Below are positions 179-14,208 of a stretch of 51,199 bases of DNA, one piece after another. This stretch comes from Candidatus Halobeggiatoa sp. HSG11 (GTDB lineage: Bacteria; Pseudomonadota; Gammaproteobacteria; Beggiatoales; Beggiatoaceae), in assembly GCA_030378105.1 (NCBI GenBank), contig JAUCGL010000017.1, positions 1 to 51,199 on the forward strand, in the 5' to 3' direction. Each line of letters begins with the position of its first letter. Positions within the stretch are counted from its first letter, which is position 1. The notes beneath the pieces were generated by a model, which worked only from the letters and a program-made list of their open reading frames with translations, was not told where the DNA came from and did no database searches. Made by a program: the position numbers and the translations under genes.

Positions 179-1243
179 GTGTACAAAACCTCAAAATCTA
201 CGACTAAAATTCCATTACTTGTTCCCGACTTGCCAACTACAGAAGAATTATTGCCATGGTTAAAGTGTATTGATGATAATAAATGGTATAGCAATTTTGG
301 TCCATTAGTACAGGAATTTGAATCGAAACTGACTGAAATTTTAAATTCTAATTTAACTACAGTTAGTTCTGGTACCAGTGCTTTAGAATTATCTCTACTT
401 GCTCTTGATATCCCTGTTGGCTCTAAAGTTTTATTACCAGCTTTCACTTTTCCGGCTACAGTAACTGCCGTTAAACATGCAGGTTTGCAACCAATATTTA
501 CCGATGTTGCTGCTGATAATTGGCTACTTAATCCAAGCATTGCTCGCCAAATACGGAAAAAAATATCTTATGATGTTGTTATACCAGTGACAACCTTTGG
601 TCATCCACAACCAGTAAATGAATGGGATAAATTTTACAGCGATACTGGTATTAAAGTTTTAATAGATGCAGCTTCCTCTTTTGGAGTACAACCTATTGGA
701 AAAAATTGTATCATTACATTTAGTTTCCATGCTACTAAACCATTTGGAATTGGGGAAGGTGGTTTAGTTATCGCCAATTCAATTGAATTTATTCAACAGG
801 TAAGAAAATTAAGTAATTTCGGATTTGAAAATGGTGTTATAATTAAATCAGGCTATAATGGTAAATTAAGTGAATATCATGCTGCTGTTGGTTTGGCACA
901 GTTAGAACGGTGGGAACAAATAATTCAGAGGCGTAAAAAAATTTGGGATATTTATCAAGATTATTTAGATAAAAACACTTTACAAAACATGCCAAAGAAT
1001 TATATTCCTGCTATTTTGGCGGTTAAGTTTAATACTAAAAAATCAATTGATTATCAATTTCAAACTCGACGCTGGTATTATCCTCCATTATATAAACATC
1101 CAGCCTTTACTGATATACCAAAATTTGGACCTGAAACAGAAAATGATTTGCCAATAACTGAAAATTTATCTTTATTGGGTATACCATTTCATACCTCACT
1201 TACAGAAGATGATATTATTTACATTTGTGATAGTTTGATATGA
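179..1243 (+). CDS. DegT/DnrJ/EryC1/StrS-type PLP aminotransferase
   Basis: This 354-residue protein looks like a fold-type I PLP aminotransferase of the DegT/StrS family, which transfers an amino group to keto-sugar nucleotides. The SSGTSALE segment (63-70) is the phosphate-binding region, D163 in LIDAASSFG would contact the PLP ring nitrogen, and K187 in SFHATKPFGIGEGG is the expected Schiff-base lysine. The only plausible start is GTG at 179: an in-frame TAA lies two codons upstream and the first internal Met is far downstream. No strong ribosome binding site is visible. The gene is slightly shorter than usual for the family (about 370-400). A family A repeat ends about 30 bp upstream. The neighbouring dehydrogenase (6165) and acyltransferase (3993) suggest a shared amino-sugar pathway. 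Confidence 0.88.
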   Translation: MYKTSKSTTKIPLLVPDLPTTEELLPWLKCIDDNKWYSNFGPLVQEFESKLTEILNSNLTTVSSGTSALELSLLALDIPVGSKVLLPAFTFPATVTAVKHAGLQPIFTDVAADNWLLNPSIARQIRKKISYDVVIPVTTFGHPQPVNEWDKFYSDTGIKVLIDAASSFGVQPIGKNCIITFSFHATKPFGIGEGGLVIANSIEFIQQVRKLSNFGFENGVIIKSGYNGKLSEYHAAVGLAQLERWEQIIQRRKKIWDIYQDYLDKNTLQNMPKNYIPAILAVKFNTKKSIDYQFQTRRWYYPPLYKHPAFTDIPKFGPETENDLPITENLSLLGIPFHTSLTEDDIIYICDSLI

Positions 1244-1288
1244 AATTACTTTCAAAATAGACGATTAAAGAATATTTTCAGTGAATCA

Positions 1289-1315
1289 GATCTGCTAGGT
1301 TTTGAAAACTTAGAT
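1289..1315. repeat. Short hairpin, CTAGGTTTTGAAAACTTAG type
   Basis: Near-perfect inverted repeat (CTAGGTTTT / AAAACTTAG) about 50 bp after the aminotransferase stop. Related hairpins occur at 20242-20275 and 26873-26905. It has no T-tract, so a terminator role is uncertain. Confidence 0.5.
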
Positions 1316-1377
1316 ATTTAGGCTAAAATATTTGCCAAATTTGAAATTTATTTGTGTAGAAATATCAAGTCAAGAAA

Positions 1378-1386
1378 TGCTATAAT
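1378..1386 (+). promoter_or_regulatory. Extended -10 promoter element TGCTATAAT
   Basis: A consensus extended -10 (TGn-TATAAT) lies seven bases before the ATG at 1394. Initiation at the usual distance would give a leaderless or nearly leaderless transcript for the nuclease-like gene. The longer string AGAAATGCTATAAT recurs at 12974-12987, and AAATGCTATAAT on the minus strand at 23201-23212. Confidence 0.5.
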
Positions 1387-1393
1387 TTAACTT

Positions 1394-2056
1394 ATGGAGA
1401 AATTAACTTTTTCAAAAATAACTCGATTTGATTTAAAAAAAATTGTCAATATTCAGGAACGGGGAATAGATAAATATATTTGGACTGAAGTTGAACATAT
1501 TGGTTTGACTGACATGGAATATAATTATTTACAAACAATTAAAACTCATTTATTTAATTATGACACTCATCTAATGAATGAGGCTACAATTTGGGCTAGA
1601 GCTATTTACCCATTATTATTATTGGTGGAACGAGGTAATATTCAAGCTTGGGCAGAGGTACCATTAAAAGCTGTATATGGTGATTTTGAGTTAGAAGGTA
1701 TTGCTGATGGTGCTGTGGGTAGATGTATAAGCGGATTCTTGGAAGCACCATTTTTAATAATTGTGGAAGCTAAACGTGGTTTAGAAGCTGAAAATCCTTT
1801 GATCCAGTTATATAGTCAGATATTAGCAGCCGCTTATTTAAATTGGCAAAATGATTCAACTAATGACATTCAAACTATTTTTGGTTGTTATACTATCGCT
1901 GATACTTGGAAATTTTTAAAAGTAGATGTTGATAAAAACGATACAAACAATATTTACATGCGCGTTGAATCTTCAAGAGAATATGTTGAAAAATTAGAAA
2001 TTGAGTATATTTTTAAATTATTGAAAGGAATAGTAATTAGTAAAACTAATAAATAA
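1394..2056 (+). CDS. PD-(D/E)XK nuclease-like protein
   Basis: This 220-residue protein has no recognised name. Its centre carries a typical PD-(D/E)XK arrangement: D105 in GIADGAVG, then E125-A-K127 in LIIVEAKRG, followed by a helix with Gln (QLYSQILAAAYL). The same D...ExK...Q order occurs in the proteins at 10455 and 11353, so this is a small paralogous family here. It has no other domain, signal peptide or membrane segment. It appears to have its own promoter at 1378 and is followed after two bases by the glycosyltransferase gene, so it may drive the rest of the operon. Whether it is an active nuclease is unknown; many such stand-alone proteins remain uncharacterised. Confidence 0.6.
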   Translation: MEKLTFSKITRFDLKKIVNIQERGIDKYIWTEVEHIGLTDMEYNYLQTIKTHLFNYDTHLMNEATIWARAIYPLLLLVERGNIQAWAEVPLKAVYGDFELEGIADGAVGRCISGFLEAPFLIIVEAKRGLEAENPLIQLYSQILAAAYLNWQNDSTNDIQTIFGCYTIADTWKFLKVDVDKNDTNNIYMRVESSREYVEKLEIEYIFKLLKGIVISKTNK

Positions 2057-2058
2057 TT

Positions 2059-3960
2059 ATGGAACCAGATAAAAGTATTACAATAAGACGAATAGAACGC
2101 TTAGTTTATCAACAAAATACTGATGAAGCTATTATTGCTATTATAAGAATTTTAGAACTTTCAGAATCTAGAGGTGGGATAAAACTTGATAACGAAAGTA
2201 GCAATAAAGAGAAAAATGATAGACAATTAGAACAAGTCTTTTTAAATGGTTATACTCGTTTAGCTAGTGTCTTTACAGCTTTTTTTTCCAACCCTAAAAT
2301 ACTATTATCGCCAGAAGGTTTTCAAGCTATAGTAAAAAATAAGAAACATTTATTAGGGATTTTTGAGCTAAGTGGTTTTGGCAGTGCAGAGCATATGTTA
2401 GGTTTGGTTGGTACTCAAACAACCAGTGACAAATTTTCTATTCAAAATGAACAGCAATTGATGAAGTTTTTGATATTCTATTCATTGGGTTCGGAAATAG
2501 AAATAGGTTTTGCTGAATTGATAAAAAAAAGTCCGAAGTTGCTATTACCGATATATATTAATTTAATTGGAGAAGAAGGAGTATTAGATTTTTCTGCTGC
2601 TAAAAACCGAGACAATTTATTACGTTTGGGACCGTTGTTAGAAGATATCCCTTTAGAAAATTTTAGTAACTTAACCAGTTTATCAGTTTTATGGATGTAT
2701 TGTAGTTATACTTCTTGTGAAAATAAACATGATATCAAACATCACCTGAATATTATCATCCAAAAGTTTATGAAACAAGAAGGAGTAACAACCCCTTTTT
2801 TACCAGTTCCTCGCAAGATAAAACAACGACCGGTGATGCTTATAGTTTCAGAACGTTTTACCTCTAAACATGCTATGTACCGATGTTATGCACCATCTAT
2901 TCAACAGTTACAAGAAAAATTTGAATTGGTGTGTATTACAGAAAAAAGATTTATAGATGATAACAGCAAACAGTTGTTTGATAAAGTTATTTATGTGGAC
3001 AAAGAAAAAACAGCCATAAAAAAACTGGTTGGAAAGGTGATTAAATTAAAACCAGACATAATTTATTTCCCTAGTTTGGGAATGTTACAATGGACTTTAT
3101 TACTGGCCAATTTACGTCTGGCTCCAATTCAATTTATGACTTTGGGTCATCCAGCCACAAGTAAATCACCATTTGTAGATTATATTTTTATGACAAATAT
3201 TACCTTTTCCGATAAAGTTGATTGTTATAGCGAGAAAGTTGTATTGTTAGATGATGAAGAGGCCTTAGTTAATATTCCGCCAATAAATTTTGTTAAGTGT
3301 CCACCTGATATAAGTAAAAATCCACCAATTTTAAAGCTTATTGTTACAAGCACTTCTTTAAAGCTTAATGTATCTTTTATCGCTGTTTGTAAAGAAATTC
3401 TTGACAATAGCCAAAAAACAATAGAGTTTCATTTTTTTCCGGCTGAAAGAGGTATGAGTTATCAAAAAATTAAACAGCGGATTCGTAATTGGATACCAAA
3501 TGCTGAAGTTTATCCATTTACAGATTACAATACTTATATAGGCAATTTGAATAAATGTGATATTCATTTAAGTCCTTTTCCATTTGGAGGTTCTAATAGC
3601 AATATTGATTCAATGCGGCAAGGCCTCCCTATAGTTGCTATGGAAGGTCATGAAGCACATTCAAGGATTGACTCAATATTTTTAAAGTTAGGTAAACTAC
3701 CAAGTTGGTTAATTACTTACAGTAAAGAAGAATATGTTAAAGCTGCTCTTCGTTTAATCCATAATGATGAAGAACGGGTGGCTATTAGCGAAGCTTTATT
3801 AAACTTGGATTTTGACAATGTTTTTATGGATCATGAATTTCGTAATCACGAGAAAGTATTTGGCAAAGCGGTAGAATGGTTATACCAAAATCATGATTTT
3901 ATTCAAGATGATGGAAGAAAAGTTTGGACAGTAGAAGCCCAACAAGAGTTATCTAAATAA
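2059..3960 (+). CDS. HMW1C/OGT-like (GT41-type) glycosyltransferase
   Basis: The 633-residue protein has a helical N-terminal half and a GT-B-like C-terminal half. The segments IQFMTLGHPATSKSPFVDY, FHFFPAERG and LSPFPFGGSNSNIDSMRQG followed by GLPIVAMEGHEAHSRID are characteristic of HMW1C-type cytoplasmic protein N-glucosyltransferases and the related O-GlcNAc transferase group. It has no signal peptide or membrane helix, so it should act in the cytoplasm on a nucleotide-sugar donor and probably a protein acceptor. It lies between a nuclease-like gene and a NeuD-like acyltransferase. In this context it may transfer the modified sugar made by its neighbours; donor and acceptor cannot be read from the sequence. 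No separate partner adhesin gene is visible. Confidence 0.72.
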   Translation: MEPDKSITIRRIERLVYQQNTDEAIIAIIRILELSESRGGIKLDNESSNKEKNDRQLEQVFLNGYTRLASVFTAFFSNPKILLSPEGFQAIVKNKKHLLGIFELSGFGSAEHMLGLVGTQTTSDKFSIQNEQQLMKFLIFYSLGSEIEIGFAELIKKSPKLLLPIYINLIGEEGVLDFSAAKNRDNLLRLGPLLEDIPLENFSNLTSLSVLWMYCSYTSCENKHDIKHHLNIIIQKFMKQEGVTTPFLPVPRKIKQRPVMLIVSERFTSKHAMYRCYAPSIQQLQEKFELVCITEKRFIDDNSKQLFDKVIYVDKEKTAIKKLVGKVIKLKPDIIYFPSLGMLQWTLLLANLRLAPIQFMTLGHPATSKSPFVDYIFMTNITFSDKVDCYSEKVVLLDDEEALVNIPPINFVKCPPDISKNPPILKLIVTSTSLKLNVSFIAVCKEILDNSQKTIEFHFFPAERGMSYQKIKQRIRNWIPNAEVYPFTDYNTYIGNLNKCDIHLSPFPFGGSNSNIDSMRQGLPIVAMEGHEAHSRIDSIFLKLGKLPSWLITYSKEEYVKAALRLIHNDEERVAISEALLNLDFDNVFMDHEFRNHEKVFGKAVEWLYQNHDFIQDDGRKVWTVEAQQELSK

Positions 3961-3992
3961 TTTATGTTATAAATAATATTAAAATTGGTTAA

Positions 3993-4661
3993 ATGAAAAT
4001 TATAATATATGGTAATGGGGCAATGGCAAGAGTTGTTTATTCCTATATCAGGCATAATATGGAAGTGTGTGGGTTTACTGTAGATGATTCTTGTATTAAT
4101 CAAAATAATTTTTGTGAATTACCATTAATACCATTTAGTAAAGTAGAGTATCAATTTAGCCCTAAAATATATAAAATGCTTATAGCAGTGGGTTTTGTTG
4201 ATATGAATGAATTACGGAACATAAAATATCAAGAAGCTAAACATAAGGGTTATCAGTTCGTTAGTTATGTCCATGATTCAGTATTTCAACATGATGATAT
4301 GTTGATTGCAGAAAATTGTATTATCCTTGATTTTGTGTCAATACATCCCGGTACAACTGTTGGACATAGTACTTTTATATCAAGTAATACTAATATCGGT
4401 CATGATTGCAATATTGATCATTCAAACTGGATAAATTCTGGAGTAGCAATTGCTGGTAGTTGCCAAATTGGTTCTGGTTGTTTTTTTGGAGTTAATTCAT
4501 CAGTTGGAAATGATATTAATATTGGTAATCAAAATTTTATTGCTGCAAATACATTTATTAGTAAAAATACTAAAGACAATGAAGTATATTTATCAGAAGT
4601 AGGTCAACACCTAAAAATGCAAAGTAAAAGATTTCTTAAATTCAGTTCAGCATTAAAGTAA
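3993..4661 (+). CDS. NeuD/PglD-like sugar O/N-acyltransferase
   Basis: The 222-residue protein starts with a Rossmann-like PglD_N domain (MKIIIYGNGAMARVV) and continues from about residue 100 into a left-handed beta-helix of hexapeptide repeats (for example ISSNTNIGHDCNIDHSN and VAIAGSCQIGSGCFFG). This architecture is that of NeuD, PglD and PerB, which move acetyl or related acyl groups onto amino or hydroxyl groups of sugars. A His in the GHDCNIDHS stretch matches the region of the catalytic His of PglD. The gene starts 32 bases after the glycosyltransferase and ends five bases before an acyl-activating ligase, which suggests that its donor might be a special acyl group and not acetyl-CoA. 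Confidence 0.8.
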   Translation: MKIIIYGNGAMARVVYSYIRHNMEVCGFTVDDSCINQNNFCELPLIPFSKVEYQFSPKIYKMLIAVGFVDMNELRNIKYQEAKHKGYQFVSYVHDSVFQHDDMLIAENCIILDFVSIHPGTTVGHSTFISSNTNIGHDCNIDHSNWINSGVAIAGSCQIGSGCFFGVNSSVGNDINIGNQNFIAANTFISKNTKDNEVYLSEVGQHLKMQSKRFLKFSSALK

Positions 4662-4666
4662 GTGTA

Positions 4667-6160
4667 ATGAGTACTATTGCCCATAAAATTTTTAATCAAG
4701 CTAATAATAATCCCGCTAAAATTGCTATTTATTGTGATGAAAATTCCATAAATTATAGACAATTAGCTGACATGGTAAGTGGTTGGTCTGTTTCTATGCA
4801 AGAACAAGGAGTTAAATATGGTGATCATATAGCAGTATTGCTTCCAAACTGCATTGAATACATAGCACTTATGTTAGTTGCTGCAAATAATGGATTGGTT
4901 TTAGTTCCATTGAATATTGCATTACCTATAGAAGCAATCTATCAAGCATTTATAACTGCAAATGTGAAACATGTTGTAGCAACGGCAAATATATTAAAAT
5001 TGTTAGATTCAAAAATACCAATTGCTGATGATAGTTTATGGATTTCATTAGATGAAAAATATAATAATGCAATATTACTGATTGATTTAATTGGGGAAGC
5101 ACAAACAAATTTCAAATCAGAAGGTCAAGATAATGCTCCATTTATTTTAACTATGACCTCCGGTTCAACCGGTAATCCTAAACCAATTACTCTTGAACAA
5201 CAAACTAAACTGGCTAGAGCAAATTCCGCAATAGAAATATATAAAATATCAAATATTGACATAACTCTTGTGGCAACCCCTCTTTACCATTCTCTTGCGG
5301 AAAGATTGGTACTTATTGCTTTATTGACTGGTGGAACTGCTGTTTTAATGCCAAGATTTTCACCTTCAGAATGGATACGTATAGTAGAAGAAAAACAAGT
5401 TTCTTTCACTATAGCTGTTTCTTCACAGTTATCTCAAATAGCCAATCATATAGATAAAGTTAAGTCAATTGATAGTTTAAGATGTGTGGTATCTTCTTCG
5501 GCCTTATTAGAACTAAAAATTAAAGAAAGGCTTATCACAAAATTAAACTGTGAATTTCATGAATGCTATGGAACTTCAGAAATTGCTATTGCAACTAATT
5601 TAACAGCTAAGGATGCAACATTTAAATTAAAATCTGTCGGTAAAGCTATCTCAAATGTTGAAATTGGAATATTGACTGATAATGGTACTATTGCCGGAGT
5701 AAATGAAGTTGGAGAAATTATATGTAAAACTCCAATGCTCTTTAGTGGTTATTATGGTCAACCTAAATTAACTAATGATGCAATTTTTGATGATTATTTT
5801 TGTACCGGAGATATTGGTAGAATTGATGAAGATGGTTTTTTGTATTTTTTAGGCAGAAAAAAAGAAATTATTATTAGTGGTGGAATAAACATTTATCCAG
5901 CTGATATCGAATCAGTAATTATAGAATATGATTTAGTACAAGAAAATGCAGTTTTTCCATTTCCAGATGATAAATTAGGAGAAATTGTTGCAGTTGCTAT
6001 AGTTCCTAAAGAGCAGTTTAATTTAAGAACATTACGTTTATTATGTGCAGAACGATTAGCTGATTATCAACAACCACGCAAGTTTTTTATAGTGGAAAAG
6101 TTACCAAAAAATAGTTTAGGTAAAATTATGAAGCACCAACTTATATCGACATATACTTGA
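4667..6160 (+). CDS. Class I adenylate-forming acyl ligase (AMP-binding)
   Basis: The 497-residue protein has the full ANL superfamily motif set: P-loop TMTSGSTGNPKPI, the ECYGTSE adenine-contact motif, YFCTGDIGRIDEDGF, the hinge GRKKEIIISGG, and the C-terminal catalytic lysine region PKNSLGKIMK. It should activate a carboxylic acid with ATP and load it on CoA or on the phosphopantetheine of a carrier protein. An acyl carrier protein is encoded 1.1 kb downstream in the same operon (7311), making ACP loading plausible. The acid cannot be predicted. It is a stand-alone ligase with no condensation or carrier domains. It follows the NeuD-like gene by five bases and precedes the dehydrogenase by four. 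Confidence 0.88.
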   Translation: MSTIAHKIFNQANNNPAKIAIYCDENSINYRQLADMVSGWSVSMQEQGVKYGDHIAVLLPNCIEYIALMLVAANNGLVLVPLNIALPIEAIYQAFITANVKHVVATANILKLLDSKIPIADDSLWISLDEKYNNAILLIDLIGEAQTNFKSEGQDNAPFILTMTSGSTGNPKPITLEQQTKLARANSAIEIYKISNIDITLVATPLYHSLAERLVLIALLTGGTAVLMPRFSPSEWIRIVEEKQVSFTIAVSSQLSQIANHIDKVKSIDSLRCVVSSSALLELKIKERLITKLNCEFHECYGTSEIAIATNLTAKDATFKLKSVGKAISNVEIGILTDNGTIAGVNEVGEIICKTPMLFSGYYGQPKLTNDAIFDDYFCTGDIGRIDEDGFLYFLGRKKEIIISGGINIYPADIESVIIEYDLVQENAVFPFPDDKLGEIVAVAIVPKEQFNLRTLRLLCAERLADYQQPRKFFIVEKLPKNSLGKIMKHQLISTYT

Positions 6161-6164
6161 AAAT

Positions 6165-7292
6165 ATGGATACTTTTTCAATTGGTTTTATTGGTGGTTCA
6201 CTTCAATCTGCTGTTGGATATACGCATTTTATATCATCTCGAATGGATAATCGTTGGTCTGTTGATGCTGGATGTTTCAGTACAGATGCTGATGCAAATC
6301 AAGCAACTAGCCAAGCTTATGGTATTAATCCAGATAAAGTTTATGACACTTGGCAAAAAATGTTAGCAAATGAAAAGCAATTGGACGCAATTCTGATACT
6401 AACTCCAACTCCATCTCATTATGAAATAGTCACAGCTTGTTTAAATAAAGGTTTTTCAGTAATTTGTGAAAAAGCTCTAGCCTTGAACTCCACAGAAGCT
6501 AAAAAAATTATTACTGTACAAAAGCTTAATAAAGGTTTTTTAGCTGTAACATATAATTATTCTGGTTACCCAATTGTTCGTGAGTTACGACAAAAAATTA
6601 ATAATGGAGTACTTGGTAAGATATTACATTTTCAAGCTGAAATGCCACAGGAAGGATTTATTAAAGCAGATGTACATGGAAATAAAATAACTCCTCAATC
6701 ATGGCGACTCACAGATACAGGAGTAATTCCGACAATTTACCTTGATTTAGCAGTACATTTACATCAATTAATTTATTATTTGATTGGTCAAAAACCAATT
6801 GAAGTGGTTAGTCAGCAAGCAAGTAATGGTTGGTTTGAAGTTATTGATAATGTTATGTGTTTGGTTCGTTATACTGACAATATTCAAGGACAGTTTTGGT
6901 TTAGTAAATCTGCCCTTGGTCATCGAAATGGTTTGAAACTGCGTATTTATGGTTCAAAAGCTTCGGCTGAGTGGTATCAAAATAATCCAGAGGAATTACT
7001 TTTATCTTATTCAGATGGCAAACGTGAAATTGTTGATCGTGCTTCTTCTTGTGTAGAACTTGCTAATAATATTAAATACAATAGATTTAAAGCTGGACAT
7101 CCGGCTGGATTTATGGAAGCATTTGCAAATCTTTATATTGATATTGCAGATAGTTTACGACAATATAAAACAACTGGTATTTGGAAATCAGAAGAAGTTT
7201 ATGGTCCTACATTAGCTTTGGATGGGTTGCATTTTTTAGAAGCTATTTCTAAATCGGCGAAATCTAAAGTTTGGCAGAAAGTTATTGATTAA
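6165..7292 (+). CDS. Gfo/Idh/MocA-family oxidoreductase
   Basis: The 375-residue protein has an N-terminal NAD(P)-binding Rossmann domain (FSIGFIGGSLQSAVG at about residues 4-18, where the usual GxGxxG is GFIGGS) and the family motif ILTPTPSHYEIVTAC followed by VICEKALAL, corresponding to the usual EKP. The C-terminal half has the expected alpha/beta sugar-binding fold, including HLHQLIYYLIG. Members such as WlbA oxidise a sugar-nucleotide hydroxyl to a ketone that a DegT aminotransferase then aminates, matching the gene at 179. The EKP-to-EKA change removes the conserved proline but keeps the lysine. Translational coupling with the preceding ligase is likely (four-base gap). Confidence 0.85.
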   Translation: MDTFSIGFIGGSLQSAVGYTHFISSRMDNRWSVDAGCFSTDADANQATSQAYGINPDKVYDTWQKMLANEKQLDAILILTPTPSHYEIVTACLNKGFSVICEKALALNSTEAKKIITVQKLNKGFLAVTYNYSGYPIVRELRQKINNGVLGKILHFQAEMPQEGFIKADVHGNKITPQSWRLTDTGVIPTIYLDLAVHLHQLIYYLIGQKPIEVVSQQASNGWFEVIDNVMCLVRYTDNIQGQFWFSKSALGHRNGLKLRIYGSKASAEWYQNNPEELLLSYSDGKREIVDRASSCVELANNIKYNRFKAGHPAGFMEAFANLYIDIADSLRQYKTTGIWKSEEVYGPTLALDGLHFLEAISKSAKSKVWQKVID

Positions 7293-7310
7293 GTATCAAG
7301 GTATTTATTA

Positions 7311-7556
7311 ATGTCAGAAAAAATTAGAAATTTTGTAATTTCTGCTATTGAAAAAAAAGGTAAATTACCAAAGGACTGTGATATAGATTCTTTTAATTAT
7401 ATTGATTCTGGTTATGTAGATTCAATGGGAATTATCAAATTTATGATAAGTATTGAAGCTGAATTTAATATTGAATTAACTGAATCAAATATGGAATCTC
7501 CAGAGTTTAAGACTATTGGTGGTTTGGTTGGTATAATTAAAAATAAGATAGCTTAG
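7311..7556 (+). CDS. Acyl carrier protein
   Basis: This 81-residue acidic helical protein has the phosphopantetheine attachment motif in SGYVDSMGI, with S38 as the modified serine, and the C-terminal helix seen in carrier proteins. It is a discrete carrier between the dehydrogenase (18 bases upstream) and the radical SAM gene (five bases downstream). It is not near fatty-acid synthesis genes, so it is likely a dedicated carrier that holds the acyl group activated by the ligase at 4667, for use by the NeuD-like acyltransferase or as a substrate of the radical SAM enzyme. The last two roles are inferences from gene order. Confidence 0.88.
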   Translation: MSEKIRNFVISAIEKKGKLPKDCDIDSFNYIDSGYVDSMGIIKFMISIEAEFNIELTESNMESPEFKTIGGLVGIIKNKIA

Positions 7557-7561
7557 TTGAT

Positions 7562-9379
7562 ATGAAAATGAATCACTTAATAGTCGTACCTAGAATAGTA
7601 AATAATATTGGAGATTGGTATCAATTACCTTTGGGCATAGCCTATATTTCGTCTAGTTTAGAAAAAGCTGGTTTTACTCTATTTAAACTTAATTTGAACA
7701 CAATTGCCGGTTCAGTTCATGATATTTTAAGTAATGTAATTGCAAAACATAATATTAATACGGTTCTTACTGGTGGTTTGACTGGTCAGTATGGAGCTAT
7801 TAGAGATATTGCCAAAGAAACCAAATTAATTAATAAAGATATCAAAACTATAGTAGGTGGAGGCATAATTACAAGTGCACCAGAACATGCAATGGAAGCT
7901 CTTGAATATGCTGATTATGGAGTTATTGGAGAAGGAGAAATTATTTGTTGTGAATTACTTGAAACTATTGAAAATAATCTGCCTATAGAAAAAGTTATCA
8001 GTATAGTTTACCTAAAAAATGATTCATATATAGTTACACCGGGCAAGCCTGCCACAGTAGATGTTAAAACTCTACCTTTTCCAGATTATAAAGGACTAGA
8101 ATTTGATAAGTTAGTAAAATCGGTTCCTAATACTCTTGGTATGTGTGAATATAATACTTTACCAATAGTAACCAGTAGGTCGTGTCCGTATAAATGTACA
8201 TTTTGTTTTCATTCCAGTGGCCAAAAATTTCGACAGAGAGACTTAGATAGCGTTTTTGCAGAAATAGATTATCTTGCAAATGAATTTGGAGTTAAATACT
8301 TATCTATTCAGGATGAGCTATTTGGGTTGAAAAAGAAAAGGATTAAAGAATTTTGTGATAGGATTAAAAATTATAATATACAATGGCTTGCTAACTTTAG
8401 AGTAACTGATATTACTCCCGAACTGATTGCAATGCTTAAAGAGGCAAATTGTGCTACAGTGGCGTTTGGTATTGAGAGTGCGGACAATTCAGTTTTAAAA
8501 AGTATGAATAAACGTATCACCATTGAGGATACAGAACGAGCATTAGAACTTGTATATAATGCTGGGCTCGGAATTCAGGGAGTTTTTATTTTTGGTGACA
8601 TAGCAGAAACAGTTGAAACTGCTACCAGAACTTTTAACTGGTGGAAACAACATATTAAATATGAACTACAATTAAGTGCTATAATAACTTATCCGGGAAC
8701 TGAACTGTACAAATATGCACTTAGGGAAAAAATTATTAAAGACCCGGTGCAATATATCAAGGATGGTTGCCCATTGGTTCGTTTATCCAAACATATGACC
8801 GATGAGGATTATAAGTGGCTGTTTGAGCAATTGGCATCACTTCCTAGAATGTTACACAATTTACCAAACCAAGTTCAAGTCACTAATATTGATTACGAAC
8901 ATGGCAATATTGATGTAACTGGCAATTGTGTTACCTGCGATACGGCAAACAAATGGGAAAAATCCCGGCTTTTTGTACTAGAAACATTGGTGTGTAAAAG
9001 CTGCGGTAGAAGACATATTGCCCCAATACCAAAACCAGTTACCGATATAATAAGTTCTAATATTGATAAGCTTATTGATAAATATGGAAAAGTTGCTTTT
9101 TGGGGAGTAAATTCATATTTTTACAAACTTTCTGAACAATTGAATATAAAACAGTATGACAAATTGTTTTTTATTGATCAGTCAGATGTTAGATGTGGAC
9201 TTAAAATATTGAAACATACCATACAATGTCCTGACGTTATAATGGAAGAAAACATAAAATGTGTGGTTGTATCCGTAGTTCAATATTTTTCCATTTTAAA
9301 ACAACCTATTGAAGATGATTATCAACAAGAAAAGGTGATGAGTATCTCAGAACTTTTATCTGACATTGATAATATTTGA
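7562..9379 (+). CDS. B12-binding-type radical SAM protein with C-terminal Cys-rich segment
   Basis: The 605-residue protein has an N-terminal cobalamin-binding-like Rossmann domain (about 1-170, with IVGGGIIT and YGVIGEGE, but without an obvious DxHxxG base-off histidine motif). The radical SAM core follows, with the 4Fe-4S ligands C208, C212 and C215 in SRSCPYKCTFCFHSSG. After the core lies a four-cysteine zinc-ribbon-like segment (CVTC ... CKSC, about 455-490) and a final Rossmann-like part (KVAFWGVNSYFYKLSEQL). Family members methylate or rearrange unactivated carbons. Here the substrate may be the sugar or the carrier-bound acyl group. The distal portion recalls the nucleotide-binding lobe at the N terminus of the following FkbM protein, whose ORF it meets. 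Confidence 0.82.
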   Translation: MKMNHLIVVPRIVNNIGDWYQLPLGIAYISSSLEKAGFTLFKLNLNTIAGSVHDILSNVIAKHNINTVLTGGLTGQYGAIRDIAKETKLINKDIKTIVGGGIITSAPEHAMEALEYADYGVIGEGEIICCELLETIENNLPIEKVISIVYLKNDSYIVTPGKPATVDVKTLPFPDYKGLEFDKLVKSVPNTLGMCEYNTLPIVTSRSCPYKCTFCFHSSGQKFRQRDLDSVFAEIDYLANEFGVKYLSIQDELFGLKKKRIKEFCDRIKNYNIQWLANFRVTDITPELIAMLKEANCATVAFGIESADNSVLKSMNKRITIEDTERALELVYNAGLGIQGVFIFGDIAETVETATRTFNWWKQHIKYELQLSAIITYPGTELYKYALREKIIKDPVQYIKDGCPLVRLSKHMTDEDYKWLFEQLASLPRMLHNLPNQVQVTNIDYEHGNIDVTGNCVTCDTANKWEKSRLFVLETLVCKSCGRRHIAPIPKPVTDIISSNIDKLIDKYGKVAFWGVNSYFYKLSEQLNIKQYDKLFFIDQSDVRCGLKILKHTIQCPDVIMEENIKCVVVSVVQYFSILKQPIEDDYQQEKVMSISELLSDIDNI

Positions 9380-9384
9380 AAAAT

Positions 9385-10458
9385 ATGCTTACTATCCACG
9401 AAATAAAGCCAAATATTCAAGCAGTTAATTTTTGTAAGGACTTTTTAAGTTCCGATCCCAAAAAACGTTATGTTGTTGGCAAAAATGAATATTCAAAAAG
9501 TATTATTAGCCAAATTGAAATAGAAGCAATTATAGATGATTTCACCACAGATACAACTTATTTGGATAAACCAATAATAAAAACAGAAAATATACCATCT
9601 GATAGTTTGGTGATAGTGGCAGTAACAATTTATCCTTTTACGATTAGAAACAAATTATCTGAGATGAATATCAGGCAATTGGACTATTTTGCTTTTTATG
9701 AACATTCAAATCTTGATATAATACAGGTAAAAGTTTGGGCTTCATTCAGAAAGGATTTTAAAAACAATAAAACCAAATATTTATGGGTGGACGAGCTGCT
9801 GGCTGATGCTGAATCAAAAAGGATTTATAACCAAATTATTAACTTCCGTCTATCAGGAAACTTAGCCTATATGGAAGGTTTTACAGACCGTCAAAAACAA
9901 CAATATTTTGAAGATTTTCTTGATCTAAAAAATGAAATTTTTGCAGATGTTGGAGGCTTTGATGGTTTCACCAGTCTGGAATTTATAAAAAAATACCCTG
10001 ATTATAAAGCTGTTTATATTTTTGAGCCTGAATTGGAAAACATGGAAAAAGTTAAAGCAAATCTCGCTCAATATCCTAATATCAATTTTATCCAGCAAGG
10101 CTTATCCAATAAAAAACAGATTGTTAAGTTTTCTGTATCTGGTTCAGCTTCTACAATCAGCGAAAATGGTACGATAGAAATACAAGTTGATGAATTAGAT
10201 CAGATTGTTAATGATGCTATTTCGTTTATAAAAATGGACATTGAAGGTGCTGAAGGTTTAGCAATTGAAGGGGCAAAACAAACTATTTTGAAAAATCATC
10301 CAAAACTAGCTATTAGTGTTTATCATAAAGCCAATGACTTTTGGAAAATCCCCGAACAGGTGTTGTCAATAAGAAATGATTACGATATTTACCTTCGTCA
10401 TTATACGGAAGGAGTTGATGAAACAGTTATGTTCTTTGTTCCAAATAATAAAATGTGA
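9385..10458 (+). CDS. FkbM-family SAM methyltransferase
   Basis: The C-terminal half is a typical FkbM methyltransferase: SAM-binding FADVGGFDGFTSLEFIKKYP, YIFEPELENMEKVKANL, FIQQGLSNKK, and the motif FIKMDIEGAEGLAIEGA. Such enzymes O-methylate hydroxyl groups of sugars or small molecules. The first roughly 150 residues form a separate Rossmann-like lobe (YVVGKNEYSKSIISQI ... LVIVAVTIYPF) like those fused to other glycan-modifying enzymes. The ATG at 9385 is used here; a TTG at 9376 would add three residues and overlap the preceding stop codon. The stop overlaps the GTG start of the next gene. A capping or modifying methylation of the cluster's glycan is the likely role. Confidence 0.85.
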   Translation: MLTIHEIKPNIQAVNFCKDFLSSDPKKRYVVGKNEYSKSIISQIEIEAIIDDFTTDTTYLDKPIIKTENIPSDSLVIVAVTIYPFTIRNKLSEMNIRQLDYFAFYEHSNLDIIQVKVWASFRKDFKNNKTKYLWVDELLADAESKRIYNQIINFRLSGNLAYMEGFTDRQKQQYFEDFLDLKNEIFADVGGFDGFTSLEFIKKYPDYKAVYIFEPELENMEKVKANLAQYPNINFIQQGLSNKKQIVKFSVSGSASTISENGTIEIQVDELDQIVNDAISFIKMDIEGAEGLAIEGAKQTILKNHPKLAISVYHKANDFWKIPEQVLSIRNDYDIYLRHYTEGVDETVMFFVPNNKM

Positions 10459-11057
10459 AAAAACATTGCTACAACATGAATAATTCAATTTTAAAAAAAG
10501 ATAAACGTTATTCATTTTCTGATTATTTTTATATGAACAACCCAACCGAAGAAATTATCACAGAATTGGGTTACTCTTTAGAATTTGCAGAAATTCAATT
10601 TCCTTCAACTACAAATATTGAAAATACCACTGTTGAAAACATAAAAAATATTTATTATAAATTACTCCCAAAAATAACGCTTAACTCAGAAATTGCTAAA
10701 CGTGAATTTATGATAGCACCATTATTACATCAAGTGATACTCAATATTGATGATAAATTAAATGGTTACATAGATTATTTAATTCGTTCTAAACAAGAAT
10801 TGATAGTTATCGAAGCTAAAAAAGGTGATTTGGAAAGAGGTTTTAATCAGTTAGCAGCAGAAATGATAGCGTTAGACCAATACGAAACAAGCCAAGTACC
10901 AGAAATATTATATGGTGCCATAACAATTGGTGAAGTTTGGCGATTTGCTCAATTAAAACGACTAGATAAAACTTTAGTTAAAGATATCAATCTATTTAAA
11001 TTTCCTCAAGATACTAAAGAATTATTAGTAATTTTAACAGGGATACTTGCAACATAA
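10455..11057 (+). CDS. PD-(D/E)XK nuclease-like protein (array member A)
   Basis: The 200-residue protein has D107 in GYIDYLIR, E120-A-K122 in ELIVIEAKKGD, and Q132 in ERGFNQLAAEM, the same D...ExK...Q layout as the gene at 1394. The GTG at 10455 overlaps the stop of the FkbM gene, which favours translational coupling; an ATG at 10476 is the alternative. A large part of this gene is repeated at 12090-12335 with very high DNA identity but with a deletion that removes the D/ExK core. No partner methylase or specificity gene is visible, so a classical restriction role is not supported. The biochemical function is unknown. Confidence 0.6.
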   Translation: MKKHCYNMNNSILKKDKRYSFSDYFYMNNPTEEIITELGYSLEFAEIQFPSTTNIENTTVENIKNIYYKLLPKITLNSEIAKREFMIAPLLHQVILNIDDKLNGYIDYLIRSKQELIVIEAKKGDLERGFNQLAAEMIALDQYETSQVPEILYGAITIGEVWRFAQLKRLDKTLVKDINLFKFPQDTKELLVILTGILAT

Positions 11058-11064
11058 TTATTTG

Positions 11065-11150
11065 GTAATCTTACATAAAGTAGTGATGAACATTTTAAGA
11101 TATTAATTTAATTATTTTTTAACAGTAACCGCTACTTCATTTAGGATTAC
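11065..11150. repeat. Inverted repeat after nuclease-like gene A
   Basis: Arms at 11065-11083 and 11132-11150 match at about 16 of 19 positions and enclose an AT-rich loop. It begins eight bases after the stop at 11057. It could be a degenerate mobile repeat or a folded 3' end; there is no clear T-tract. Confidence 0.45.
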
Positions 11151-11352
11151 TAAAAATCAAATGGTTAAGATGTTTTTTCTCCCAAATTTGGTTTTGCCTG
11201 CATTATTTTGTAAGGATACCTATCAATACCAAATGTTGAGGTAGTTTCGTGAAATTTACAAAAATACGATTATTTGCCCTTAAGTCCACTAAAATTTTGA
11301 ATTTCATATCAAGCTATTTTAATTTCAACTACAAATTTAAAAGTATAAGTAA

Positions 11353-12084
11353 ATGGATATTCAAAAAATCATAGACAATTTAACGCCAGAAAGTTTAGAG
11401 AAAATTAACGAGGCATTTGCCAAAAAACAAAATAAAATTCCGACTTACTCTTATTCTCAAATAACTTTCAAAGATTTAAAAAAACTGTTTGATATTAAGA
11501 ATAATCCGACATTCGATATATTTGACAGATGGTTTAATAATAATATTGAACTCAAATTTGATGATGTTCAATTTTTAATTAATTTGATTAGAAATCATGA
11601 AGTTTTAATAGACAGCTATAAAGAAGAGGATTTAAAAGTAAAGTTCATCACCCCCATATTAAATAGAATTCAATTTTTAGATATGGACATACCATTAAGA
11701 GATTTTTATGAAGAACAATTAACTTATAAAACAAAGAATTTTATTTTAACAGGTGTAACTGATTTTTTAATTGCAAAAGGGTTAGAATTTCCGGATGAAC
11801 CCTATTTTTTTATTCAAGAATTTAAAAAATCTATTAAAAATGATGATCCACGTCCCCAATTACTAGCTGAACTCATTTCAGCTGTTGAATTAAATCATTT
11901 TAGTTCAATGAAAGGTGCTTATATTGTAGGTGCTATCTGGCATTTTGTTATTTTAGAAAAAATAGGAACCAATAAATACCAATATTTTATTAGTAAATTA
12001 TTCAATGCGACAAATATAGAAGACTTAAAATCTATTTATAAAAATTTGCTATTTATAAAAAATGAAATTATTAATAACATTTAA
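11353..12084 (+). CDS. PD-(D/E)XK nuclease-like protein (array member B)
   Basis: This 243-residue protein has a helical N-terminal region (about 1-125) and a C-terminal restriction-endonuclease-like core with D137 in TGVTDFLIA, E156-F-K158 in FFIQEFKKS, and Q169 in RPQLLAELISA. The N-terminal part is clearly paralogous to the truncated gene at 12421 (shared patterns such as IPxYxYSxI and LKxxFxxPxLxRI). The core resembles that of the proteins at 1394 and 10455 only in motif layout. It stands about 300 bp after member A. I do not recognise a named family and no function can be assigned beyond a possible nuclease fold. Confidence 0.6.
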   Translation: MDIQKIIDNLTPESLEKINEAFAKKQNKIPTYSYSQITFKDLKKLFDIKNNPTFDIFDRWFNNNIELKFDDVQFLINLIRNHEVLIDSYKEEDLKVKFITPILNRIQFLDMDIPLRDFYEEQLTYKTKNFILTGVTDFLIAKGLEFPDEPYFFIQEFKKSIKNDDPRPQLLAELISAVELNHFSSMKGAYIVGAIWHFVILEKIGTNKYQYFISKLFNATNIEDLKSIYKNLLFIKNEIINNI

Positions 12085-12089
12085 GGATA

Positions 12090-12394
12090 AAAAATATTTA
12101 CTATAAATTGCTCCCTAAAATAACGCTTAATTCAGAAATTGCTAAACGTGAATTATGATAGCATCATTATTACATCAAGTGATACTCAACATTGACGCTA
12201 AATTATTGGAAAGAGGTTTTAATCAGTTAGCAGCAGAAATGATAGCGTTAGACCAATACGAAACAAGCCAAGTACCAGAAATATTATATGGTGCTATAAC
12301 AATTGGTGAAGTTTGGCGGTTTTCTCAATTAAATATAATTATTTTAGAAATGGAACATAGTGAATTTTCCAAACCTAACGTATCATTTTCATAG
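12090..12394 (+). pseudogene. Decayed copy of nuclease-like gene A (A')
   Basis: From about 12090 to 12335 the DNA closely matches 10647-10957. A one-base deletion (GTGAATTATGATAG versus GTGAATTTATGATAG) breaks the frame near 12150. An in-frame 69-bp deletion then removes the stretch from Asn103 to Asp125 of gene A, which carries the acidic residue and the ExK motif. An ORF can still be read from an internal ATG at 12155 to 12394, but its last part is unrelated sequence. The product would lack the active site, so it is best treated as a relic. Confidence 0.8.
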
Positions 12395-12441
12395 CGATTG
12401 TTCATTACCTTTGAATTTTATTGAATAATTTAAGAATTATT

Positions 12442-12906
12442 ATGAAAATACGCCAAGAAACAGAGCTAAACTTATTAAGAAAAATAGAAGCCTTAGAACA
12501 GGAAATAAAAGAGATAAAAGGCGAGAATAAAGAACCAATTCCCATCTATCAATATAGTAGAATAAGAGATATTGATTTGGATGAGATTGTGAATATCTCT
12601 CAAAAAATAAATCGAACCAAGTTTAATAACTGGTTTATTAACGACATTGATATAAGTAACAAAGACGAGTTATTTCTACTTGAACTTTTAGAACAAGAAG
12701 AAAACTATATATCCCTATATAATGAAGAAACATTAAAAATGAGATTTTTAAGTCCATTGCTGAGGAGAATAGATTTTAAAACTGAGCAATTTCAAGAACC
12801 TTCAAAATGGTGGATTTCATTTCATTCTATCCACCCTACATTTGTTGCTTGGGACTTATGTATAACGATGAGACGAAGACGTTGGGAACGAGAAAATGAC
12901 ATATAG
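12442..12906 (+). pseudogene. Truncated paralogue of nuclease-like gene B (B'), cut by a family A repeat
   Basis: The first roughly 110 codons encode a paralogue of the N-terminal region of the protein at 11353 (IPIYQYSRIRDIDLDEIV, LKMRFLSPLLRRIDFK). At 12796 the reading frame runs into the family A repeat and ends within a few bases after it at 12906; the last 37 residues are encoded by the repeat. The nuclease core expected after this point is missing. ATG at 12442 is used; a TTG at 12421 is also possible. It is most likely a dead gene. Confidence 0.78.
12796..12897 (+). repeat. Dispersed repeat family A, copy 2 (partial)
   Basis: Matches positions 48-147 of copy 1 almost base for base, from GAACCTTCAAAATGG to GGGAACGAGAAAAT, but lacks the left GTAGGGTGGGTAG part. 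It lies inside the reading frame of the truncated gene B'. Confidence 0.88.
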
Positions 12907-13226
12907 CAATTCTTAATTAAATTCTACAAAAATATCAATTATTTATTTTGTATTACTGTAATCTATTTAATCGAGAAATGCTATAATTAAGTATATATAC
13001 TTATTTAGGAAAAATGTCTCATCCCCTATTTCTTCTGCTAACCATGAGAATAGGTTATTTTGGATTGTCAACCAATAAGTTGATTAGTTTTTCTTTCAGT
13101 TTTTCCATTATTTTTTCTTGCTTATTTAAGTATCTTGTTATATTATCTCATTATTTATCTTGTTTGTATAATTACAATTCTCTCTTTTTATGAGTTTTGC
13201 AAGAGGCTCGAATATAGAATATTTTA
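12898..13226. other. Intergenic stretch with a promoter-like site and one possible 59-codon ORF
   Basis: TGCTATAAT at 12979-12987 is an extended -10 on the plus strand, followed by the palindrome TAAGTATATATACTTA. An ORF of 59 codons runs from ATG 13014 to TGA 13193 behind an AGGAAAA ribosome-binding-like site. It is hydrophobic and low-complexity and I do not recognise it. On the minus strand a short coding-like remnant ends in LINLLVDNPK near 13053. Neither is called as a gene. Confidence 0.35.
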
Positions 13227-13712
13227 ATGAAAATAAAAACTGGGTTAGGTCAAGATAGTCATCGTTTTCAAGATAACTCTATTAATTTTAAAGAGTTAAT
13301 ACTTGGTGGAGTTAAGTTTGAGAACAATTTATCTTTGCAAGGTAATAGTGATGCTGATGTGGTGTTACACGCTTTGTGTAATGCTATTTCTGGTGTTACG
13401 GGAGTAAATATTTTAGGTAAAATAAGTGATGACCTATGTGCTAAAGGAATAATAGATAGTAGTGTATATGTTCAAGAAGCTTTAAAATATTTATGTAATT
13501 GGCAAATTTGTCATGTATCTTTTAGTTTTGAATGTCAAGTGCCTAAAATAACTCCTAAAATTTCTGAAATGAAATATACTATTAGTAAATTATTAGAGCT
13601 ACAAATTCAAGATATAGCTATAACTGCTACTAGTGGTGAAGGTTTGACGGCTTTTGGACGTGGGGAAGGAATTCAGGTTTTTTGTATAGTGACGGCAATA
13701 AATGACACGTAG
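13227..13712 (+). CDS. ispF: IspF-like 2-C-methyl-D-erythritol 2,4-cyclodiphosphate synthase
   Basis: The 161-residue protein aligns over its full length with IspF of the MEP isoprenoid pathway, which cyclises CDP-methylerythritol phosphate to the cyclodiphosphate with release of CMP. The metal ligands are present: D10 and H12 in GQDSHRF and H48 in SDADVVLHAL. The C-terminal SGEGLTAFGRGEGI matches the usual LGFTGRGEGI element. The middle differs from the common form: the DIGKxFPDxDP loop is replaced by NILGKISDDLCAKGI, which marks a divergent subfamily. No ispD is adjacent. It overlaps the next gene by 11 bases. The fold and active site are secure; the precise substrate is a little less so. 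Confidence 0.8.
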   Translation: MKIKTGLGQDSHRFQDNSINFKELILGGVKFENNLSLQGNSDADVVLHALCNAISGVTGVNILGKISDDLCAKGIIDSSVYVQEALKYLCNWQICHVSFSFECQVPKITPKISEMKYTISKLLELQIQDIAITATSGEGLTAFGRGEGIQVFCIVTAINDT

Positions 13713-14208
13713 CATAAGTATGGCAAGTGGAATGCAAATTGCTCAACAAGCAACAGCAGATATAACAACTTGGTTGAATAAATTACCACAAACTCAAAAA
13801 ATTACAAATGTTGAAAATGAACTTGTATATCAAAAAATAGATGTTGATTTGGTATGGACAACTAAAAAAAGCTGTTATAAAGTAGAAATTAAAGGTGATC
13901 AATGGCATAAGACAGGTAATTTTTTCTTTGAGACTAAAAGTAATCGAGAAAGAGCTACACCCGGATGTTTTCTCTATACCGAAGCAGATTTGTTATTTTA
14001 CTATTTTGTTATTCCTAAGATATTATATATTTTAATAATGCCAGAAACTAGACATTGGTTTTTGGCCAACATACAACGTTTTAAAGAGCGTTCTACCACA
14101 ACTCCGGTCGGTAATGGATTTTATACAACTGTGGGAAAATTAGTACCTATTGAGATTGTTTTGCAAGAATTGGAAGTGAAAAGATATAATTTGGATATTC
14201 CTAAATAA
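13702..14208 (+). CDS. PD-(D/E)XK-like hypothetical protein
   Basis: This 168-residue protein has D49 in IDVDLVW, E62-I-K64 in YKVEIKGD, and a second acidic/lysine strand FFFETKSN, a layout consistent with a restriction-endonuclease-like fold. The C-terminal half (YTEADLLFYYFV, FYTTVGKLVPI) resembles small stand-alone proteins of unknown role found in cyanobacteria and sulfur bacteria. The start at 13702 overlaps the ispF end; an ATG at 13720 is an alternative. It is not a close paralogue of the nuclease-like genes upstream. No methylase or toxin partner is near. It converges on the histidine kinase gene, with no clear terminator in the 87-bp gap. Confidence 0.5.
   Translation: MTRSISMASGMQIAQQATADITTWLNKLPQTQKITNVENELVYQKIDVDLVWTTKKSCYKVEIKGDQWHKTGNFFFETKSNRERATPGCFLYTEADLLFYYFVIPKILYILIMPETRHWFLANIQRFKERSTTTPVGNGFYTTVGKLVPIEIVLQELEVKRYNLDIPK

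Follow-up and report, generated by a model that had tools for sequence, protein, structure and literature searches.

Introduction

The closest known kind of system to the gene cluster described here is the flagellin glycosylation island. The cluster lies at positions 179–10458 of a 51,199-nucleotide stretch of DNA from Candidatus Halobeggiatoa sp. HSG11 (contig JAUCGL010000017.1, assembly GCA_030378105.1), and this stretch, which is the entire contig and comes from a 5.2-Mb genome (G000), is referred to as the window. The cluster combines genes for a DegT aminotransferase, a glycosyltransferase of the GT41 family, a NeuD-like acyltransferase, an ANL ligase, a Gfo/Idh/MocA dehydrogenase (Gfo), a discrete acyl carrier protein (ACP), a B12-binding radical S-adenosylmethionine (SAM) protein and an FkbM methyltransferase. 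As described in the accessible parts of the reports, the viosamine island of Pseudomonas syringae pv. tabaci contains vioA, vioB, vioM, vioT, vioS, vioR and acp and decorates flagellin with an amino sugar that is N-acylated and O-methylated (PMC3927599), and the flagellin islands of enterobacteria carry GT41, DegT, NeuD, FkbM, ACP and fatty-acid-CoA-ligase genes (PMC4875605). In the same way, the sfmABCDE flagellin modification operon of Shewanella oneidensis is described as encoding an ATP-grasp protein, proposed to be a carboxylate-amine ligase, and an IlvB-like thiamine pyrophosphate (TPP) enzyme (PMC3765264), and the type B flagellin locus of Clostridium difficile, CDR20291_0244-0247, as carrying an ATP-grasp gene near an FdtB-like aminotransferase gene (PMC5207246). 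We report that relatives split the cluster of the window into a resident pair of genes and a cassette, and that the ligase, ACP and NeuD genes of the cassette are replaced in sister cassettes by an ATP-grasp gene.

Flagellin glycosylation islands are taken as the closest kind because 9 of the 27 cassette loci collected in this study adjoin flagellar genes. The window shares with them the DegT, NeuD, FkbM and ACP genes and a glycosyltransferase. Those islands adjoin genes for flagellin, FliD or FliS, which the cluster in the window does not, and no flagellin above the cut-off was found in the ten family genomes searched, that of the window included (a weak match in G004 scored 21.2 against 26.6 bits). 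With the viosamine island as described (PMC3927599), the window has in common an aminotransferase, an acyltransferase, a discrete ACP and a methyltransferase, all at the family level. The viosamine island also has a 3-oxoacyl-ACP synthase III and a 3-oxoacyl-ACP reductase, neither of which was identified among the ten window genes scanned (179–11057), whereas the window adds the ligase, Gfo, the B12 radical SAM protein and an HMW1C-like glycosyltransferase. In the enterobacterial islands the GT41 enzyme is of the SPINDLY type rather than HMW1C-like, the word oxidoreductase does not occur in the main text whereas the window has Gfo, and the exchange for ATP-grasp does not feature in the accessible account (PMC4875605). 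The sfmABCDE operon is similar to sister cassettes in its ATP-grasp protein, and its IlvB-like TPP enzyme recalls one beside a sister cassette (L054), but the operon is of the pseudaminic-acid type and the term carrier protein does not occur in its main text (PMC3765264). The C. difficile locus differs in its FemAB-like and ornithine-cyclodeaminase-like genes, and the accessible account of it includes neither an ACP nor an acyl ligase (PMC5207246).

Two further comparisons concern single components. The HMW1C-like N-glycosyltransferases (NGTs) ApNGT and AaNGT share their domains and 9 of 14 sugar-nucleotide residues with the window enzyme, in which the sequon-reading residues are changed and which has a DegT neighbor. 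The linked ligase and discrete ACP, which co-occur in the loci collected by Gfo, resemble the logic of DltA and DltC. The parts are thus known in print, as flagellin islands with ACP, ligase and NeuD genes and as ATP-grasp genes in flagellin loci. No published account of the exchange, or of its pairing with an HMW1C-like enzyme, was found in the literature covered, which was mostly open access; the ten matches listed of 3,057 for glycosylation in Parabeggiatoa did not contain that name, and no publication was found that combined as many as four of flagellin, AMP-binding, acyl carrier protein, ATP-grasp and Gfo.

A resident gene pair and a cassette

The original prediction treated the cluster as a single set of eight gene families. 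Searches with Pfam and NCBIfam confirmed that all eight are present, on the forward strand and tightly packed between positions 179 and 10458. From the glycosyltransferase through FkbM the intergenic gaps are 32, 5, 4, 18, 5 and −4 bases, a spacing that looks as in one operon. The single eight-gene unit was nevertheless rejected, as relatives split the genes into two units. The first consists of the DegT/DnrJ/EryC1/StrS aminotransferase (179–1243; PF01041, 215 bits; GTG start), located at the edge of the contig, and the HMW1C/NGT-like, putatively cytoplasmic glycosyltransferase (2059–3960). The second comprises the NeuD/PglD-like left-handed beta-helix acyltransferase (3993–4661; NeuD_NnaD, 141 bits, below the cut-off of 160.8), the ANL adenylate-forming acyl ligase (4667–6160; AMP-binding 193.7 bits, C-terminal domain 46.5 bits), Gfo (6165–7292; PF01408 and PF22725), the ACP (7311–7556; PF00550, 20.1 bits against a cut-off of 20.8), the radical SAM protein (7562–9379; B12-binding 53 and Radical_SAM 69 bits), which is an optional part, and the FkbM-family methyltransferase (9376–10458; PF05050 51.9 and TIGR01444 71.3 bits, above both cut-offs), which has an extra N-terminal region and a listed TTG start.

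We consider the DegT-glycosyltransferase pair to be resident, and the remainder a separate cassette, because the two units occur apart in relatives. DegT and the glycosyltransferase are adjacent in five genomes of the family (G002, G004, G005, G029, G038), and the other six gene families are not in those stretches, two of which span only 5.5–6 kb. In G036 the two genes are about 2.5 kb apart, and no DegT gene adjoins the glycosyltransferase in G025 or G041. Matches to DegT were obtained in 12 of 42 family genomes (E ≤ 1e-60), with 63–77% identity for the copies in G002, G003, G004, G005, G029, G036 and G038, and a search with the glycosyltransferase in 143 relatives gave 18 matches at E ≤ 1e-10, with nine family members, its own genome included, at E ≤ 1e-90. 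The ligase was matched in the window genome and in a Parabeggiatoa genome (G022), both times inside a cassette. The latter genome contains NeuD-ANL-Gfo-ACP-FkbM in the order of the window and with 65–80% identity, the radical SAM gene not being among them. The cassette was probably acquired. On a Parabeggiatoa contig (L047), the terminal portion of the ACP gene recurs after FkbM, from about position 5048, and the beginning of a further radical SAM gene (CxxxCxxC) comes next; this partial repeat looks like a duplication scar from a gene insertion.

The two units could represent unrelated pathways that are adjacent by chance, with the cassette serving a surface polysaccharide and the glycosyltransferase adding an ordinary sugar, either glucose or the product of DegT, to proteins. 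We regard this as a possibility of modest weight. It is consistent with the pair being found without the cassette in five relatives, with the cassette being present in the Parabeggiatoa genome in which GT41 was not found, and with the placement of some cassettes in polysaccharide-type clusters, namely with a flippase (PF13440) in L053 and with an ABC transporter and a GT2 enzyme in L055. However, only 32 bases separate the glycosyltransferase from NeuD, all genes are on one strand, and GT41-type enzymes, albeit of another branch, are located near 10 of the 27 cassette loci. Furthermore, an aminotransferase of the usual cassette type was not found in the window genome, so that the cassette may depend on the resident DegT.

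Two forms of the cassette across phyla

Two peptide patterns of Gfo were scanned over a collection of one genome per species (84,980 species), a scan that misses distant cassettes and for which the source sequences (the window and L047) are both of the ligase type. The 88 stretches recovered yielded 20 loci in records named Pseudomonadota, Bacteroidota, Ignavibacteriota, Thermodesulfobacteriota, Cyanobacteriota and Verrucomicrobiota, many of them from metagenome bins for which some of the phylum labels may be wrong. A Gfo profile added three loci from 369 genomes of the class and four from 398 genomes of the phylum, two draws that may overlap. The weakest match in the phylum genomes had an E-value of 2e-129, followed by a gap down to the limit of 1e-90, and by sequence the window Gfo belongs to a discrete subfamily. 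All 27 loci were collected by Gfo alone and bear only on sugar-gene settings; ligase and ACP genes away from sugar genes are outside their reach. Genes in the fetched loci were called greedily from long reading frames, by which small or overlapping genes can be missed, and tblastn searches were added for all 27.

The ANL ligase is present in 11 of the 27 loci (L047, L048, L049, L051, L052, L053, L058, L061, L064, L066, L079) and an ATP-grasp protein in 15 (L050, L054, L055, L056, L057, L059, L060, L062, L063, L065, L072, L073, L080, L081, L082); the two were never found together, and L074 has neither. NeuD accompanies the ligase in all ligase loci but one and was identified in none of the ATP-grasp loci (E 1e-5), of which L060 encodes a distant hexapeptide protein (30% identity over 64 residues). 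The ACP, likewise, is found in all but one of the ligase loci and was seen in none of the remaining 16. Within the first 20 loci, the ATP-grasp gene occupies the position of NeuD and ANL, between DegT and Gfo (in L060 DegT is elsewhere), and the ACP gene beyond Gfo is also missing, so that two separate positions change together. According to Pfam, the protein from L055 is above the cut-off for ATP-grasp_4 and that from L060 above the cut-off for ATP-grasp_3; with NCBIfam, the L055 protein weakly matched PylC and the L057 protein weakly matched other models. PylC is an amide-forming ligase, and an ATP-grasp enzyme alone can couple an amine directly with a free acid, for which a ligase, an ACP and an acyltransferase would take three steps. 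We propose that one ATP-grasp ligase does the work of the ligase, the ACP and NeuD in the sister cassettes.

That the three genes go together and are replaced by ATP-grasp is the main support for a model in which their products act together in acylation. A Fisher test of ligase against ACP over the 27 loci gave 1.3e-6, with kinship ignored. The idea that the ligase, the ACP and NeuD acylate an amino sugar, put forward in the original prediction, is thereby partly upheld: the trio co-occurs with Gfo, mostly also with an aminotransferase and FkbM, and is absent from the ATP-grasp loci, whereas the fixed set of eight genes, the analogy to the Wlb pathway and the action of the radical SAM enzyme on an ACP-bound acid were not supported.

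Of the first ten ligase loci, which come from several phyla, nine have the order NeuD, ANL, Gfo, ACP, FkbM. L049 and L052 carry an additional methyltransferase gene ahead of FkbM, and L049 has one more gene ahead of Gfo. A relative of DegT was identified in 19 of the first 20 loci, directly upstream of NeuD in seven of the first ten ligase loci (L048 is cut by the contig end) and upstream of ATP-grasp in nine of the first ten ATP-grasp loci, with a dehydroquinate (DHQ) synthase gene in between in L050. FkbM is present in 18 of the 20. Flagellar genes were found near L049, L052, L057, L058, L063, L065, L066, L079 and L082; these calls are above the Pfam or NCBIfam cut-off for L049, L052, L057, L079 and L082, below it for L058, L063 and L065, and from tblastn only for L066. 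Genes for GT41 enzymes resembling O-GlcNAc transferase (OGT) were located by tblastn near L049, L051, L052, L057, L058, L059, L061, L062, L066 and L082, with Pfam run for L052 only. Both neighbor counts are lower bounds since several contigs are short. In L058 and L066, FkbM is followed by a Methyltransf_24 protein and a fatty acid desaturase-like protein, as identified with Pfam for L058, an arrangement that recurs in 6 of the 20 loci and in both types. In L079, positions 4911–13757 encode PseB, PseC, PseG and PseI, all above cut-offs, and FliS, along with relatives of the Gfo, ANL and ACP proteins of the cassette.

The last of these loci bears on the role of Gfo, which together with the ligase and the ACP might make and carry the acid and have no part in forming the amino sugar, the acid being the same in both cassette types. 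This is conceivable, and we assign it roughly the same modest weight as chance adjacency. In L079, the amino sugar is already accounted for by the PseB/PseC pair of the island in which the Gfo, ligase and ACP genes reside. Also, Gfo is 57–76% identical to the query regardless of the ligase type in the first 20 loci (though 43–49% in the other seven), and the motifs of the ligase pocket region hardly vary across phyla. On the other hand, Gfo/Idh enzymes of known substrate mostly act on sugars and cyclitols, to judge from the names of solved relatives, and all but one of the first 20 loci contain the DegT relative.

Predicted functions of the cassette proteins

The best NCBIfam model for the window DegT is DesI (146.6 bits, below the cut-off of 650), as it is, again below the cut-off, for the one cassette DegT scanned, that of L053. 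DesI is a 4-aminotransferase. Among solved chains, 2po3, printed under the name of 4-dehydrase and which we take to be DesI, scored above WbpE, with 113 against 91.5 bits for the window DegT and 231 against 144 bits for that of L053. RmlB, which makes the 4-keto sugar precursor, is encoded elsewhere in the window genome (507.6 bits, above the cut-off). Because the DegT proteins score best against DesI and RmlB is encoded, these comparisons favor a viosamine-like 4-amino sugar over a 3-amino sugar of the Wlb type.

The original prediction had instead drawn on the Wlb pathway, in which Gfo would oxidize C3 of a nucleoside diphosphate (NDP) sugar, DegT would aminate C3 and NeuD would acylate the product, here from an ACP-bound acid. 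The make-up of the locus fits such a route at the family level, UDP-GlcNAc 3-dehydrogenase is among the weak matches to Gfo (65.5 bits against a cut-off of 450) and WbpE is among the relatives of DegT. To judge from the names of best matches and from gene context, we nonetheless consider this route unlikely, as 2po3 outscores WbpE for both DegT proteins, the resident DegT is found in stretches of relatives without Gfo, Gfo is paired with PseC in L079, and no chain named WlbA or WbpB is among the 33 solved relatives of Gfo, many of which have no functional name.

NeuD aligned to the solved structure 3bss, which we take to be PglD, with 59.9 bits, and the HE pair of 3bss, presumably catalytic, corresponds to H137-D138, which are invariant in the seven cassette NeuD proteins to which it is 53–75% identical. 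That NeuD uses acetyl-CoA as usual, with the ligase and the ACP serving the radical SAM enzyme or FkbM in another small-molecule pathway, agrees with PglD and perosamine N-acetyltransferases being its closest relatives by name but is the most doubtful of the alternatives, given that NeuD, the ligase and the ACP are jointly absent from the 15 ATP-grasp loci, where Gfo stays and FkbM is found in 13, and that the radical SAM gene occurs with both locus types.

The carrier and ligase proteins have intact motifs. The phosphopantetheine serine of the ACP lies in a DS motif (DSMGI); the protein is 80% identical to the Parabeggiatoa copy, and nine of the ten ligase loci collected first encode full-length relatives at the corresponding gene position. 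The ligase motifs TSGSTG, TGD, GRxK and the C-terminal GK lysine are retained in all 12 aligned ligases, as are two motifs from the region where the pocket is expected, YHSLA[EQ]R and VSSSA; this near-invariance suggests one acid across phyla.

The identity of that acid is touched upon by neighboring genes in some of the loci. In L054, genes at positions 2105–7318, divergent from the cassette, encode an IlvB-like TPP enzyme, an HMGL-like aldolase/synthase, a short-chain dehydrogenase/reductase and a DHQ synthase, and these genes possibly make the acid; IlvB-like and HMGL-like genes are, by similarity, present also in L056. A class II 3-deoxy-D-arabino-heptulosonate 7-phosphate (DAHP) synthase gene adjoins FkbM in L053 (12530–13873), and the DHQ synthase gene of L050 is situated at positions 1380–2507. 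A DAHP or DHQ synthase was thus detected in 3 of the 20 loci among the genes scanned, and a shikimate-type acid is a lead only.

The radical SAM enzyme had been suggested to alter the ACP-bound acid. We rejected this as unsupported, since L054 combines a radical SAM gene with ATP-grasp, and neither ACP nor ligase is in the available stretch, which ends inside the radical SAM gene. Relatives of the radical SAM protein with 60–62% identity (61–62% for L054) are encoded downstream of FkbM in L049, a ligase locus, and in L054. In the Parabeggiatoa copy, no radical SAM gene separates ACP from FkbM, nor was one found in that genome at E 1e-50. At the same threshold, the protein was identified in only 1 of the 42 family genomes, that of the window, and the 369 class genomes contained its own copy and one distant relative (34%).

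A glycosyltransferase of the HMW1C branch

The glycosyltransferase passed the cut-offs for both HMW1C_N (PF18071; 45.5 bits against 27) and GT41 (PF13844; 37.1 bits against 25), and is the sole GT41 match in the window genome. Its best solved relative is 3q3e, with 245 bits and an alignment over most of the length. The score against the equivalog for UDP-glucose:protein N-glucosyltransferase (NF049992) was 325.3 bits, below the cut-off of 1000. By these comparisons the protein is a member of the HMW1C/NGT branch and not an OGT of the tetratricopeptide repeat type. A single-sequence structure prediction with a mean pLDDT of 40 was not used.

The residues of AaNGT that form the sugar-nucleotide site and read the sequon were taken from the accessible part of a published study, in which the R177A and D215A variants are reported to be inactive (PMC10507012). 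In a phmmer alignment, 9 of the 14 UDP-sugar-site residues are identical in the window protein (H276, R280, G369, H370, T437, K440, Y500, N520, D524), while five differ (S277 to Ala, H494 to Phe, S495 to Thr, T519 to Ser, G521 to Ser). None of the three sequon-reading residues R177, H214 and D215 is kept, being replaced by E, a gap (S with MAFFT) and V, respectively, in a comparison based on sequence alignment only, where conservation is poor and the numbering is shifted by one relative to the rest of the alignment. The seven other family copies that extend to the sugar-nucleotide site (L022–L028) all retain H276, R280, G369, H370, K440, Y500, N520 and D524 and have Ala at S277; L027 and L028 have a different residue at T437. 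Of the family copies besides that of the window, eight span the acceptor region (L022–L028, L030), and none of them has any of the three sequon-reading residues. A copy from another family without an adjoining DegT gene (L029) keeps the canonical sugar-site and sequon residues, whereas L031 lacks the sequon-reading residues too and has lost most of both residue sets in the alignment.

Proposed pathway

We propose that an NDP-4-keto sugar, supplied via the RmlB encoded elsewhere, would be aminated by DegT. The ANL ligase would adenylate a particular carboxylic acid and load it onto the dedicated ACP, from which the NeuD-like enzyme would transfer the acyl group to the amino group of the sugar. 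FkbM may then O-methylate the product, which the B12 radical SAM enzyme may C-methylate or otherwise alter, and Gfo would oxidize or reduce either the sugar or the acid. Finally, the resident GT41-type enzyme would transfer the completed sugar, while still in the cytoplasm, to a protein destined for the cell surface. The gene content, order and linkage, the ATP-grasp exchange, the intact catalytic motifs and the presence of RmlB were observed directly; every reaction, along with the acid, sugar and acceptor involved, the acquisition of the cassette and the hand-over to the glycosyltransferase, we infer. For the mechanism as a whole, in which an acylated, methylated amino sugar made by the cassette is put on protein by the resident glycosyltransferase, we judge the chances to be slightly better than even.

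Several observations weigh against it. As judged by the ligase, the cassette is present in only 2 of the 42 family genomes (E ≤ 1e-60), and the link between cassette and glycosyltransferase rests on adjacency in one genome, because the Parabeggiatoa genome, which is 91% complete, gave no match to the window glycosyltransferase and no GT41. The window DegT is only 27–30% identical to the usual DegT of the cassette, of which no closer relative was found in the window genome. With respect to the exchange, no more than two independent contrasts between ligase and ATP-grasp rest on supported branches of the Gfo tree, compared with six when the best tree is taken as it stands, with p 0.5 in a sign test for the two; once kinship is counted, there are too few supported contrasts to reach significance, and a single exchange event rather than repeated swaps could explain the pattern. 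In L064 the ligase and NeuD are present and the ACP was not found, and in L079 the ligase and the ACP are present and NeuD was not found. NeuD-type enzymes usually use acetyl-CoA. By name, most of the best 60 of 173 solved relatives of the ligase are CoA ligases or enzymes akin to them and not enzymes that load carriers, and the ligase could load CoA instead of the ACP.

Other features of the contig

A 220-aa protein without Pfam or NCBIfam matches is encoded at positions 1394–2056 on the forward strand, between DegT and the glycosyltransferase, by a gene missing from the earlier gene list. A gene for a protein with 71% identity is found at the same position in G029 (L023). The residues D105, E125, K127 and Q138 are invariant in five aligned proteins including this one. 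The D..E-x-K..Q pattern, which we take to be the core of PD-(D/E)XK nuclease-like folds, is invariant in and common to three small proteins without Pfam matches (1394–2056, 10455–11057 and 11353–12084), and the 1394–2056 product may thus have a PD-(D/E)XK-like core. The gene at 10455–11057 overlaps the 3′ end of FkbM, and neither this protein nor that of 1394–2056 matched Pfam at E 0.1. At the end of the contig, a reading frame on the reverse strand (50594–51175) consists of a short repeated motif (VVKVVNLLK-like) and probably represents a tandem repeat and not a gene. Scans for promoters (74, compared to 79 in shuffled sequences) and terminators (5, compared to 4.9) revealed no signal above the shuffles.

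Significance

The results replace a one-genome curiosity with a testable, Gfo-marked module that occurs across the named phyla and whose acid-attaching part comes in two forms not seen together. The cassette probably serves to attach an activated acid to an amino sugar, and the adjoining glycosyltransferase is likely to glycosylate proteins. Ligase and ACP genes in glycosylation islands have been read as a sign of a liposugar in the accessible part of an earlier report (PMC4875605). A broader and more tentative reading, to which we give a somewhat lower probability than to chance adjacency of the two units, is that two exchangeable chemistries, ligase-ACP-NeuD or ATP-grasp, place the same unusual acid on the amino sugar of a glycoprotein, and that the first of these is coupled here to a divergent HMW1C-branch enzyme that no longer reads N-X-S/T, which would constitute a new cytoplasmic route to acylated, methylated amino sugars on surface proteins. 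If the module works as proposed, it would explain why some glycosylation islands carry a ligase and an ACP and others an ATP-grasp protein, and the HMW1C-like branch with its changed acceptor site would be of interest for protein glycosylation tools.

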